NCBI GenBank assembly: GCA_902513495.1
Contig: CABXNH010000001.1
Location: 69,858 to 105,377, forward strand
From: an uncultured Gammaproteobacteria bacterium
Lineage (GTDB): Bacteria > Pseudomonadota > Gammaproteobacteria > PS1 > Pseudothioglobaceae
Length of the DNA: 35,520 bases
Direction of reading: 5' to 3'
Each line of letters opens with the position of its first letter. Position 1 is the first letter of the stretch. A program made the position numbers and the translations under genes. Positions 7,126 to 24,230 of the stretch are shown here, piece by piece. A model generated the notes under the pieces. The model had not been told where the DNA came from and did not search any database. It saw only the letters and a list, made by a program, of their open reading frames with translations.

Positions 7126-8658
7126 TTATATCTGTGGATGTGCTCGTTCTACATTTGCCATAACTTTATTAAGCGCATGGACATAGGCCTTTGCTGAAGA
7201 GGTAATAATATCAGTATCAACACCTTGACCATTAAAGACTTTTCCTTCATGCTCTAAACGAACATTAACTTCGCCCAATGAATCGGTACCTTGAGTTACA
7301 TTTGAAACAGAATATAACTGGAGTTTTGGCTCTATATCAACCAACGATAGTATGGCAGTAAAAGTTGCATCAACCGCACCAGAAGTTGAAGCAGAAGCGC
7401 TATACTCATCACCATTGATTGAAAGTGTTATATTTGCTGTGTTTACTTTTCCAGATTCGGCGGAGACCTTAAGTGAAACTAAACGAATAATTTCAGATGC
7501 CTCTGTTTGGGCCTCTGTAACAAGAGCCTGAAGATCCTCATCGAAAATATCATGCTTCTTATCAGCCAAAGTTTTAAATCTAGAAAATGCATCGTTTAGC
7601 GCATCATCTGAGTCAAACTCAACTCCTAACTCGCTAAGTCTCGATTTAAATGCATTTCGACCAGAATGTTTACCAAGAACTAGGGAGTTATTATTCCAGC
7701 CAACATCTTCTGCCTTCATGATCTCATAGGTCTCTCTGTGCTTAAGAACACCATCCTGGTGAATTCCTGCCTCATGAGCGAACGCATTAGCTCCAACAAT
7801 CGCCTTATTTGGCTGGACTACAAAACCTGTTATTGAAGAAACCAGTCTTGAGGTCGCCAGAATACCAGTAGCATCGATATTAGTATCGCAGCTAAATACA
7901 TCCTGCCTTGTTCGAACAGCCATTACAATCTCCTCTAAAGAGGTATTTCCTGCTCTTTCACCAAGCCCATTAATCGTACACTCTATTTGTCTTGCTCCAT
8001 TTAATACAGCAGAGAGAGAATTTGAAACCGCTAGTCCTAAGTCATTGTGGCAGTGTGCTGAAAAAATGGCTTTATCAGAATTTGGGATTCGCTCTATCAA
8101 CTCTTTCATTGTCTCACCAAACTGGTAAGGAATGCTGTAACCAACCGTATCAGGAATATTAATAGTTGTTGCACCTGCATTAATTGCAGCCTCAATAATT
8201 CTACAAAGAAAATCTGTATCTGAGCGTCCAGCATCTTCAGGACTAAACTCGATGTTATCAGTAAACTTGGTAGCTCTTTTAACTGAACGAACTGCCTGAT
8301 TAACAACCTCATCAGGCGTCATTCCAAGCTTCATTTTCATGTGAATATCTGAGGTAGCGATAAAGGTGTGAATTCGAGACGAGTTCGCATTTTGAATAGA
8401 CTCACCTGCTCGGTCAATATCTTTATCGAGGGCTCTTGCTAGAGAGCATATGGTTGAATCTTTTACCGCTTTAGCTACCGCCTGAACCGCTTCAAAATCA
8501 CCCTGTGAAGCGATCGCAAAACCCGCTTCAATAACATCTACCTTCATTTTTTCTAAACTTTTGGCGATACGAACTTTCTCATCCTTAGTCATGGAGGCGC
8601 CAGGTGATTGCTCACCATCTCTTAAAGTTGTATCAAATATAATTAGTTTTTCGGACAT
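7126..8658 (-). CDS. leuA: 2-isopropylmalate synthase
   Basis: First committed enzyme of leucine synthesis, condensing acetyl-CoA with 2-ketoisovalerate. The 510-residue protein has the HMGL-like TIM-barrel start [15 protein letters not shown] (residues 9-23), the metal motif [10 protein letters not shown], the [14 protein letters not shown] segment and a full C-terminal LeuA regulatory domain (about 390-510) that binds leucine for feedback inhibition. The start is fixed by an AAAAGGAG ribosome site. Upstream is a leucine-rich leader ORF with hairpins (8704-8810), so expression is probably attenuated by leucine. Downstream it abuts the holD-like gene by two bases. The order ilvB-ilvN-ilvC-pssA-leuA is common in proteobacteria. 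Confidence 0.96.
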
Positions 8659-8703
8659 TGATTGCTCCTTTTATTTTTCCGAATTTTATCTTAAGTTGTA
8701 GTG

Positions 8704-8771
8704 ATAGACCTTCGTCTATTATGATTATTATTGCCTTACGGCAATAATCGTAACAAAGCAAAGAGCTTGCT
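8704..8771 (-). promoter_or_regulatory. Leader hairpins of the leuA attenuation region
   Basis: Three hairpins follow one another in the leuA leader transcript. The first, inside the leader ORF, pairs AGCAA with TTGCT (8757-8771). The second pairs ATTATTGCC with GGCAATAAT (8727-8748), holding the last two Leu codons, and the leader stop codon lies in its loop. The third pairs ATAGAC with GTCTAT (8704-8719). No T-tract follows any of them, so a classical intrinsic attenuator is not visible; control could act by Rho or through ribosome access to the leuA start about 45 bases downstream. Confidence 0.6.
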
Positions 8772-8810
8772 CAGTGAAATTGAAGTTAATAAATTAAATA
8801 CTTTGTTCAT
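8736..8810 (-). CDS. leuL: leu leader peptide (24 residues, 8 Leu)
   Basis: This short ORF runs ATG (8808-8810) to TAA (8736-8738), ending 77 bases before leuA. Leucine is at residues 7, 8, 13, 16, 19, 20, 22 and 23, using TTA, TTG, CTG and CTC codons; the pairs at 19-20 and 22-23 lie just before the stop. The stop falls in the loop of a 9-bp hairpin, the usual arrangement for amino-acid leader peptides in which ribosome stalling at uncharged tRNA selects between RNA folds. It differs in sequence from E. coli LeuL. There is no Shine-Dalgarno; the TATAAT at 8819-8824 would start the mRNA only one or two bases before the ATG, so translation may be leaderless. Composition, position and structure agree, but expression is inferred. 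Confidence 0.75.
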   Translation of the reverse strand: MNKVFNLLTSISLSKLFALLRLLP

Positions 8811-8818
8811 ACGCGTAG

Positions 8819-8824
8819 ATTATA
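8819..8824 (-). promoter_or_regulatory. Candidate -10 element of the leuL-leuA transcript
   Basis: A perfect TATAAT on the minus strand lies eight bases before the leader ATG, in the 21-base gap after pssA. It predicts a start at about 8811-8812. The -35 region is poor and lies inside the end of pssA. Read-through from ilvC-pssA is also possible. Confidence 0.45.
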
Positions 8825-8831
8825 AATGAAC

Positions 8832-9590
8832 TTAAGTTCCTTTACTTTGTTTTTTCTCAATTCGCCTTTTATTGAGTCCAGCAACAGTAATATAAGGACC
8901 AGAAAGCAAATACAGAAAAAACCCGGTGAACAATATAATGTTTGGTTTATACGTCAAAATGATTAAACTCATAACGATCAACAAAAGGAATCTAAATGAA
9001 GCTTTTTTTGAGTCGAGTTCTTTAAAACTATAATACCGAACGTTGCTAACCATCAAAAGGCCACACAAGATTGTAATTCCAGCACCTAGATAATAACCCA
9101 AAGATATGACATCAGAATCAAAAGAAGCAAATGTCCAAATCTTTAGCCATATCATGCTAGCAATTACGCCAGCGGCCGCAGGAGAAGGAAGGCCTTGAAA
9201 ATACCTCTTATCAGCTATACCGACTTGAGTATTAAATCTGGCAAGCCTTAAGGCTGCACAAGCTAAATACACAAAGGCTGCGAGCCATCCAAACCTTCCA
9301 AGCTCATATAGCGACCACTCATAAACAAGAAGAGCTGGGGCTAAACCAAATGACACTAAATCCGCAAGAGAGTCATATTCAGCGCCAAATGCACTTTGAG
9401 TATTTGTTAGTCGAGCAACTCGCCCATCAAGAGTATCCCACATCATAGCAATCATGATTGAGATCGCAGCTATCGTGAAATCACCATTTATTGATGAGAT
9501 AATTGAATAGAATCCAGCGAATATGCCAAACGTAGTTAAAACGCTTGGCAATAGGTAAATTCCTCTTTTTCTTGGTAATTTTTCAGTCAT
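8832..9590 (-). CDS. pssA: CDP-diacylglycerol--serine O-phosphatidyltransferase
   Basis: Inner-membrane enzyme that makes phosphatidylserine, precursor of phosphatidylethanolamine. The CDP-alcohol phosphotransferase signature DG-x2-AR-x8-G-x3-D-x3-D is intact in the stretch from DGRVARL through EYDSLADLVSFG (about residues 50-75). About six to eight hydrophobic helices and 252 residues fit the membrane (subclass II) type, not the soluble E. coli PssA. It lies between ilvC (33 bases) and the leuL leader (21 bases). This placement within branched-chain amino acid genes recurs in proteobacteria and implies cotranscription rather than a shared pathway. Confidence 0.93.
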   Translation of the reverse strand: MTEKLPRKRGIYLLPSVLTTFGIFAGFYSIISSINGDFTIAAISIMIAMMWDTLDGRVARLTNTQSAFGAEYDSLADLVSFGLAPALLVYEWSLYELGRFGWLAAFVYLACAALRLARFNTQVGIADKRYFQGLPSPAAAGVIASMIWLKIWTFASFDSDVISLGYYLGAGITILCGLLMVSNVRYYSFKELDSKKASFRFLLLIVMSLIILTYKPNIILFTGFFLYLLSGPYITVAGLNKRRIEKKQSKGT

Positions 9591-12866: not shown

Positions 12867-12895
12867 CGCTAATAACGGTAATTTAAAAGTTTTCG

Positions 12896-12901
12896 ATTAT
12901 A
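12896..12901 (-). promoter_or_regulatory. Candidate -10 element upstream of ilvB
   Basis: A TATAAT hexamer on the minus strand lies 29 bases ahead of the ilvB ATG in the 120-base gap after lpxC. A weak TTTATG at a 16-base spacing is the best -35. The gap otherwise holds only AT-rich sequence and a small inverted repeat; the only ORF near it is the two-codon ATG-AGA-TAA, so there is no leader peptide. Confidence 0.4.
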
Positions 12902-12986
12902 CCCAAAGAATTTATCTCATAAAAGACTATGTTGCTAGCTGATTAGCTTTTAAAACAAGGGGAAAGAGAGTAAAGTTATTTAGATA

Positions 12987-22070: not shown

Positions 22071-24230
22071 ATGAATCACATTCTCATAAATGCTACCCAC
22101 AAGGAAGAGATCCGGGTTGCAATCGTCAGGAACCAAAAGCTTACTGATCTCAATATAGAAACAAGCCTTAATAGGAAAACAAAAGGCAATATTTACAAAG
22201 CTAAAATTTCACGTGTTGAGCAATCCCTCGAGGCTGCTTTTGTTGACTATGGCAAAGAAAAACATGGCTTCTTGCCTTTTAAAGAGGTTTCTCCTTTTTT
22301 TGCTGAAGGAGTTAAGCCAAAGGGCGACAAACTCACCATAAGCGATGTCCTTAAAGAAGGGCAAGAAATTATCATCCAAGTTGAAAAAGAAGAGCGAGGC
22401 AATAAAGGGGCTGCTCTTAGCACCTATATTAACTTAGCGGGTGCTTACATGATTTTGACGCCAAATAACCCAAAAAGCTCGGGGATTTCGAGGCAAATTA
22501 ACGCTTCAGATCGTCAAGACTTAAAGAATTTATTGCCAAGCCTTAACGTTCCTAAACATTCTGGATTAATTATCAGAACTGAAGGTGCCGGAAGAGGTGT
22601 TAGCGAACTCCAATGGGAGGTTGACCATTTAACTCAGCTATGGAAATCCATCAAAACAGCAACTAAAAATCAGGACGGTCCTTTTTTAATCTATCAGGAA
22701 AGTGACATAACGATTAGAGCTCTGCGTGACTACTTGAGAGAGGATACTGACAGCGTAATCATTGATGACCTAGAAACCTATCAAAAAGCGCGTGATTTTA
22801 CTAATTTTGTAATGCCTCACTATCTAGATAAAATTAAGTTTTTTGATGTAACTGACCACTCTCTTTTTGCTCACATGAGTGTTGAGTCGCAGGTTAAAAA
22901 TGTCTTTAACAGGGAGGTTGCTTTAAGGTCAGGTGCAACAATTGTATTTGACGCTACAGAAGCCCTCACAGCAATTGATATTAACTCGGCAAGGGCAACC
23001 AAAGGCACAAGTATTGAAGACACTGCTTACAAAGCTAACCTAGATGCTGCTGAAGAAATTGCATTACAGCTCCAATTAAGAGATATTGGCGGCCTTATAG
23101 TTATTGACTTTATTGATATGGCATCGGATGCCAATCGAACAGCTATTGAAAAGTTAATGGAAAAAGCAACTGCTAATGACAGGGCTCGTGTTCAGATTGG
23201 AAATATTTCAAGATTTGGCTTATTGGAATTATCACGTCAAAGGCTAATGAATTCAGTTGCAGAATCAACTGGAAAAACTTGTTCAGTATGTAGTGGAAGT
23301 GGAACAAATCCAACCATACCATCATTGTCATTAAGAATTATTCGTCAACTAGAGGATAACCTTAACTCAAACAAAAATAGTGGTGATATAACAATTCAAT
23401 CAAGCGTTGAAGTTATCACCTACTTATTGAATGAAAAGAGGCAGAACATCGTCGAAATGGAAGAGAAGCATGACATTAAAATTACGCTACTTCCAAATCA
23501 GTATATGCACTTCCCTCACTATACTGTGAATAAGCAAAAGGGAGATAAAAGATCTCACCATAAAAGCTTTCAAGGCGTATCCAAGCCTCAGGAAAATCCA
23601 AACGTAATTAATTATATTGATAAACCTGATATTCCAGCCATATCCACCAATCAGCCATCAACCAAAATGCCTGAAAAGAAAGTCTCATTTATGAGCAAGC
23701 TAACTGAAATCTTCTCTTCTGATAAAAAACCTACCCCGAAATCTAAAAGCACAAGAACTCCAAATCGAAATAGAAGTAGGAACCAAAATAGAAACCAAAA
23801 TAGGAACCAGAATAGGAACCAAAGCAAGAGCCAAAATAAGAGTTCACAGGAAAATCAGAATAATGCTCATAATACAAAACCGGCTTCTAATCAACCTAAG
23901 AATGAAGCTCAAAAAAATAAAAGTAATCAAAATAAAAATAGGACTAGGAACAGGAATCAAAAAAATACTACAAATCCTAACCAAAAGCCAGTTGAGGTTG
24001 TTACGAAGCCAGTTGAGGTTGTTACGAAGCCAGTTGAGGTTGTTACGAAGCCAGTTGAGGTTGTTACTAAAAAAAGGAAGAATACTGACTCTAAGGTTTC
24101 AAAGAAAACAACTCGTAAGCCAGCAAAAAAGACAACTTCAAAAGCCAAGCTCAAAACTGAGGATAATTCTGAAAAGTCATCAGAAGATAATGCGAATTCA
24201 ACGACAAAATTAAACCAAAAAGTTTCTTAA
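22071..24230 (+). CDS. rne: Ribonuclease E
   Basis: Endoribonuclease at the core of mRNA decay and rRNA/tRNA processing. The N-terminal catalytic half is complete: an S1 domain (about 35-120, with FVDYGKEKHGFLP), the 5'-sensor and RNase H-like regions, catalytic D303 (TAIDINS) and D346 (VIDFIDM), and the zinc-link cysteines C404 and C407 (TCSVC), all at the same numbers as E. coli. The C-terminal tail from about residue 500 is short, disordered and basic, rich in Asn/Arg/Gln/Lys, with NRNQ-type repeats and four tandem KPVEVVT units. I see no canonical enolase- or RhlB-binding motif. aroE begins six bases downstream. Confidence 0.95.
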   Translation: MNHILINATHKEEIRVAIVRNQKLTDLNIETSLNRKTKGNIYKAKISRVEQSLEAAFVDYGKEKHGFLPFKEVSPFFAEGVKPKGDKLTISDVLKEGQEIIIQVEKEERGNKGAALSTYINLAGAYMILTPNNPKSSGISRQINASDRQDLKNLLPSLNVPKHSGLIIRTEGAGRGVSELQWEVDHLTQLWKSIKTATKNQDGPFLIYQESDITIRALRDYLREDTDSVIIDDLETYQKARDFTNFVMPHYLDKIKFFDVTDHSLFAHMSVESQVKNVFNREVALRSGATIVFDATEALTAIDINSARATKGTSIEDTAYKANLDAAEEIALQLQLRDIGGLIVIDFIDMASDANRTAIEKLMEKATANDRARVQIGNISRFGLLELSRQRLMNSVAESTGKTCSVCSGSGTNPTIPSLSLRIIRQLEDNLNSNKNSGDITIQSSVEVITYLLNEKRQNIVEMEEKHDIKITLLPNQYMHFPHYTVNKQKGDKRSHHKSFQGVSKPQENPNVINYIDKPDIPAISTNQPSTKMPEKKVSFMSKLTEIFSSDKKPTPKSKSTRTPNRNRSRNQNRNQNRNQNRNQSKSQNKSSQENQNNAHNTKPASNQPKNEAQKNKSNQNKNRTRNRNQKNTTNPNQKPVEVVTKPVEVVTKPVEVVTKPVEVVTKKRKNTDSKVSKKTTRKPAKKTTSKAKLKTEDNSEKSSEDNANSTTKLNQKVS
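23985..24068 (+). repeat. Four tandem 21-bp repeats inside rne
   Basis: The unit AAGCCAGTTGAGGTTGTTAC plus one base (21 bp) occurs four times in a row at 23985, 24006, 24027 and 24048; only the final base of the last copy differs (T for G). In frame it encodes KPVEVVT repeated. The near-identity at DNA level points to recent slippage expansion and likely length variation between strains. Confidence 0.95.

Follow-up and report, generated by a model that had tools for sequence, protein, structure and literature searches.

In Escherichia coli, leuA is preceded by leuL (Leu_leader in Rfam), a terminator-type attenuator that encodes a Leu-rich leader peptide and senses Leu-tRNA. In translational attenuators of the erm type (ermB/ermC), a ribosome stalled in the leader exposes the Shine-Dalgarno (SD) sequence of the next gene. 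Terminator-type attenuators with antiterminator and terminator stems also precede leuA in Shewanella (PMC2659441), and leader peptide mRNAs that are leaderless, or treated as such, are found for S. meliloti trpL (PMC7298713) and C. glutamicum ilvBNC (PMC11857589). The nearest published idea to the system described here is the LEU element of Actinobacteria, in which leuA follows a short ORF containing Leu codons and for which a base stem between the run of Leu codons and the leuA SD box, plus a pseudoknot, have been predicted (PMC1262725). In the same paper, a leader-peptide mechanism was doubted from Streptomyces mutant data and a protein-binding element was proposed (Seliverstov et al. 2005; PMC1262725).

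The locus studied here lies on the minus strand of a window of 35,520 nucleotides (the whole stretch of DNA analysed). The presumed target, leuA (7126..8658), encodes 2-isopropylmalate synthase according to its match to the NCBIfam equivalog model NF002087 (866 bits, for a cut-off of 729), and is preceded in the same direction by ilvB, ilvH, ilvC and pssA. An earlier note, made from the sequence, had placed a probable amino-acid attenuator unlike leuL between pssA and leuA, and its description of the parts proved accurate. An ORF of 24 codons (8736..8810), eight of which are Leu, encodes MNKVFNLLTSISLSKLFALLRLLP followed by a stop; its C-terminal end reads LL-R-LL-P-stop, with pairs of Leu codons before the stop, and it is separated from leuA by a spacer of 77 nt (bases 8735-8659). 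A TATAAT box (8819..8824), the predicted leader promoter, stands 8 nt before the leader ATG. The stop codon UAA sits in the GUAA tetraloop of a 9-bp hairpin, P2 (8727..8748, AUUAUUGCC-GUAA-GGCAAUAAU), which is followed by a second hairpin of 6 bp, P3 (8704..8719, AUAGAC-GAAG-GUCUAU; the loop is GAAA in most relatives). A T-tract terminator had been reported missing, and indeed no terminator-like site was found at the leader on the minus strand. Absent from the earlier note was a third hairpin, P1 (8756..8772, GAGCAA-GCUCU-UUGCUU), which is located within the ORF. The putative anti-SD is GCUCUUU (8760..8766), a segment in and beside the P1 loop with complementarity to AAGGAGC (8664..8670), the SD region of leuA.

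Like leuL in E. coli and Shewanella, this locus combines a Leu-rich leader ahead of leuA with a hairpin formed by leader-coding sequence. However, leuL relies on antiterminator and terminator stems, whereas the present leader has no terminator, is predicted to be leaderless and has no Rfam match (none on the window at gathering or relaxed thresholds, and none at the gathering threshold on 20 related loci). No second copy of the leader-end motif was detected elsewhere in the genome with at most one mismatch, no Leu-rich leader was seen by eye in the gap upstream of ilvB (12867-12986), and no similar DNA was found in plasmids. Two further observations concern the window itself. A perfect palindrome, GAACTTAAGTTC (8828-8839), overlaps the pssA stop, immediately before the -10 box. 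In locus L004 this palindrome is lengthened to GGAACTTAAGTTCC; it is not strictly kept in other genera, and could be an operator or a chance occurrence. A second open frame (23863-24213, plus strand) covers the repeat-rich C-terminal part of the gene at 22071-24230 and is most likely a shadow of its KPVEVVT repeats.

Taken alone, the 182-nt leader of the window folds just mildly better than expected by chance (z = -2.0), and the case for a regulator rests on its relatives. Close relatives are labelled Candidatus Thioglobus, PS1 clade or SUP05 cluster, and together form a family which we take to be the Thioglobaceae; leuA is present in 76 of its 83 genomes, and our sample comprises 75 leuA upstream regions from Thioglobaceae species. 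The leader ends with LLP-stop, nearly always RLLP-stop, in 67 of these 75 regions. An automatic hairpin-energy filter retained 65 of the 67, the two others (L136 and L149) having weak stop hairpins. Remnants of this ending can still be recognised in the remaining family leaders. In L123 and L140 the P2 hairpin is kept and the stop codon lost, the Pro codon has changed in L151 and L155, and the leader is interrupted by an early stop in L144, L146, L148 and L154. The latter four belong to genomes of about 1.0 Mb which look like those of host-restricted symbionts, as one relative of this genome type is labelled Vesicomyosocius, and leader decay in symbiont-like genomes would fit. In L021, a Thioglobus relative, a long insertion in a leader of 44 codons has removed P1, and the RLLP-stop hairpin is retained. 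The upstream part of the leader peptide is very variable among relatives, and the spacer to leuA is A-rich and 73-104 nt long. Intrinsic terminators appear to be essentially absent from the family, terminator-like sites being detected in 3 of the 75 members, all weak and none with a real T-tract.

The promoter box is equally well kept. Each of the 66 Thioglobaceae leaders that could be tested has an exact TATAAT ending 6-11 nt ahead of its ATG. Among 88 leaders of other gammaproteobacteria, a box matching the -10 consensus at five or more of six positions is found 4-7 nt before the ATG in 39% and 8-11 nt before it in 28%, as compared with 1-11% in the remaining 4-nt bins. Because of this position of the -10 box, the leader mRNA is predicted, as it had been in the earlier note, to be leaderless or to have a 5' end of 1-2 nt. 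The predicted coincidence of 5' end and start codon is a likeness to S. meliloti trpL and C. glutamicum ilvBNC, which, unlike the present system as we read it, are transcription attenuators and belong to other taxa.

We evaluated the three stems in 27 dereplicated sequences, each scored singly against shuffles. All three are more stable than shuffles, with family mean z values of -1.8 for P1, -3.1 for P2 and -1.7 for P3. The covariation score of P1 and P2 taken together reaches 0.210 in alignment A1, as opposed to 0.148 in shuffles (0/500) and to at most 0.077 when the stems are slid. Two pairs of P2 have changed on both sides, from GC to AU in 16 sequences and from UA to CG in 10, and P1 shows a compensatory change from AU to GC in 10 sequences. 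RNAalifold run on a MAFFT alignment recovers P2 only, P1 and P3 being missed because their registers shift between genera. Relatives thus retain a Leu-rich ORF, a hairpin at its stop and the TATAAT box in the pssA-leuA gap, with stems that covary, contrary to the lack of conservation by which the earlier note would have been refuted. A conserved leucine leader-peptide regulator is almost certainly encoded ahead of leuA, judging from this comparison of sequences, and the attenuator proposed in the earlier note is well supported. The two hairpins which the note had named are real, but they are not on their own the switch, whose likely effector is the anti-SD loop within the leader.

Complementarity between the P1 loop and the SD extends well beyond the window. 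When the loop and 2 nt on each side were compared with the SD region, 21 of the 27 diverged relatives had a complementary run of at least 5 nt; in the other six (L026, L029, L031, L118, L120 and L141) it reached at most 4 nt. The mean run is 5.59 nt for the actual loops, versus 4.31 nt (sd 0.18) for shuffled loops (0/2000). Swap tests based on contiguous helices were not significant inside Thioglobaceae (z from -1.1 to -1.4), where they are powerless because nearly all SDs are AGGAG. RNAduplex with internal loops proved too noisy for locating the pairing.

Leaders of this kind are also widespread outside the family. We sampled leuA across the GTDB class; of 99 loci, 47 have a Leu-Pro-stop ORF according to a mechanical filter, and nearly all of these 47 ORFs have a hairpin at the stop. 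As Leu-Pro-stop was the search criterion for these 47 loci, codon -2 is Leu by selection; the share of Leu among class-wide leaders, further examples of which were drawn from an earlier locus collection besides the 99, is 80% at codon -3 and 36-60% at codons -4 to -10. In 59 dereplicated leaders outside Methylococcales, we compared the best Watson-Crick helix between each leader and its own SD with those obtained for swapped partners. Helices with the own SD have a mean stacking energy of -11.0 kcal/mol, versus -9.7 kcal/mol when swapped (z = -5.2, 0/50,000), and the effect persists after strict dereplication (z = -4.4, n = 31). Control windows gave z values mostly between -0.9 and -2.5, with one at +0.4; as they are weakly positive, shared base composition explains part, not the whole, of the class-wide signal. 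Leader-SD helices of 8-11 bp occur at loci whose SD sequences differ: UGCUAUUCCUG/CAGGAAUAGCA in L245, UUCUCUCCUG/CAGGAGAGAG in L229, CUACUCCUG/CAGGAGUAG in L166 and CUCUCCUA/UAGGAGAG in L027. The leader is therefore complementary to the SD in a species-specific manner.

Swap tests gave no clear SD pairing for Methylococcales-type leaders. The leaders L062-L108 of this group likewise end with LLP-stop, despite the unclear SD pairing. In several Methylococcales leaders a segment, which in Methylomonas reads GUUCGGC, could pair with GCCGAAC close to leuA, and at several loci the SD lies inside a small GAAC-GGA-GUUC hairpin. The results suggest that Methylococcales leaders are wired differently. 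At the Methylophaga-like loci L069, L081, L158 and L223, CAGACUU past the stop hairpin matches AAGUCUG ahead of the SD, and this match seems to go together with a CCUGCU/AGCAGG helix between leader and SD. In other classes of Pseudomonadota, none of 19 readable leuA loci (20 fetched) had a Leu-Pro-stop leader of this layout, a single Leu-Pro-stop triplet being found 197 nt away. In some non-gammaproteobacterial relatives (L273, L275, L277 and L278), leuA is preceded by a GC-rich hairpin with a T-run behind it, in appearance an ordinary attenuator of the terminator type.

Our preferred reading, which we hold to be probable, is an attenuator in which the translating ribosome senses leucine and the initiation of leuA translation is controlled through sequestration of the SD. 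A dedicated promoter would start the mRNA at the leader ATG, or within about 2 nt of it, and the leader would be read as a leaderless message. When charged tRNA-Leu is ample, the ribosome would get to the stop codon and depart, and P1, P2 and P3 would fold. In the ribosome-free leader, the anti-SD GCUCUUU would then pair with the SD AAGGAGC in a pseudoknot, with P2 and P3 reducing the distance that separates them, and leuA would be off. When leucine is scarce, the ribosome would halt on Leu codons, mask the anti-SD and block P1, so that the SD would be free and leuA translated. As in the erm type, a ribosome stalled in the leader ORF is proposed to free a downstream SD, but the signal would be leucine starvation instead of a macrolide, and here it is the leader loop that would pair with the SD.

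If the ribosome footprint is taken to start about 15 nt on the 5' side of the P site, A-site stalls from L16 to L22 place the footprint over all or most of the anti-SD (8766-8760), and a ribosome at the stop leaves the anti-SD uncovered in the window genome. Some other species have an anti-SD that shares bases with the last Leu codons, and there the ribosome would have to leave first. We also computed SD accessibility by nested folding with a masked ribosome footprint, a model that does not include pseudoknots. Mean accessibility rises from 0.30 to about 0.4 in Thioglobaceae, and from 0.23 to about 0.3 in other gammaproteobacteria, when the A site is at codons -12 to -2, and drops back in both groups when the ribosome is at Pro or stop or is missing. 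For the window leader, accessibility is 0.76 without a ribosome and about 0.8 for most ribosome positions; it is 0.07 when the ribosome is at Pro and 0.69 when it is at the stop. This leader does not show the average footprint effect because its predicted pseudoknot lies outside nested folding. As its SD is mostly open in the nested fold, the mechanism needs the predicted pseudoknot in the window genome, whose own nested fold is the weakest link of the proposal.

Several other explanations have to be weighed against SD sequestration. The earlier note had raised Rho-dependent and translational control side by side. Under Rho-dependent attenuation, the bare spacer and early leuA would be open to Rho after the leader stop, transcription would be ended by Rho, and stalling would prevent this, for instance by opening leuA to ribosomes. 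The family has hardly any site resembling an intrinsic terminator, and a Rho gene is present in the window genome (TIGR00767, above its cut-off), as this explanation would require. However, Rho alone does not predict species-specific complementarity between leader and SD, which makes translational control the better supported of the two, and the spacer is both short and A-rich. We therefore consider Rho-dependent attenuation improbable as the main mechanism; Rho may add polarity and could act downstream of a translational switch. Because the Leu-Pro-stop end is nearly invariant, it could alternatively reflect slow or ligand-controlled termination, as in TnaC, with the parked ribosome setting the fold. 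Pro before a stop slows termination, and this end recurs both in the 67 Thioglobaceae leaders and, as a search criterion, at the 47 loci of other gammaproteobacteria. Yet the Pro codon also provides GC pairs of P2, so that RNA structure could account for it, and it has changed in two relatives (L151 and L155), while P2 is kept in two others in which the stop has changed (L123 and L140). As the upstream peptide is in addition very variable, an arrest of this kind seems to us slightly more doubtful still.

It is very improbable that the locus is a classical transcription attenuator like leuL of E. coli whose terminator is so weak that our scan missed it. Such an attenuator would share with the present locus a Leu-rich leader and a stop codon in a hairpin loop, as also found in the 1:2 pause hairpins of classical attenuators, but the T-tract terminator is missing here, the matches in the family are few and weak, no alternative partner for the P2 arms was seen, and Rfam models match neither the window nor the related loci. 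A broader scenario, which goes beyond SD sequestration at this locus and which we put forward as a rather unlikely speculation, is that the leaderless Leu-Pro-stop leaders of Gammaproteobacteria are both a starvation sensor and a termination-pause device, in which a slow Pro-stop would time refolding. Their RNA would co-evolve as an anti-SD of leuA, and they would replace the enteric terminator-type leuL in many non-enteric lineages.

The LEU element resembles the leaders described here in that a Leu-codon leader is complementary to the leuA SD, a likeness that is analogous and does not imply homology. It belongs to another phylum, and the anti-SD hairpin loop, the stop-in-loop hairpin and the Leu-Pro-stop end are features of the present system; the pseudoknot proposed here, between the P1 loop and the SD, also differs from the published one. 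No description of an SD-sequestering leucine leader in Gammaproteobacteria was found in the openly readable literature, and novelty is thus provisional. If the proposed mechanism is true, leucine synthesis would be controlled at the level of translation in many gammaproteobacteria outside the enterics, among them the SUP05-type bacteria, which are uncultured, abundant in the sea and small in genome, through a leuA switch that terminator-based surveys would overlook. These leaders would also provide a concrete case, in Gammaproteobacteria, of leader peptides read from leaderless mRNAs and of an SD sequestered by the RNA that encodes the leader, and would suggest that the enteric terminator-type leuL is just one among several ways of regulating leuA.
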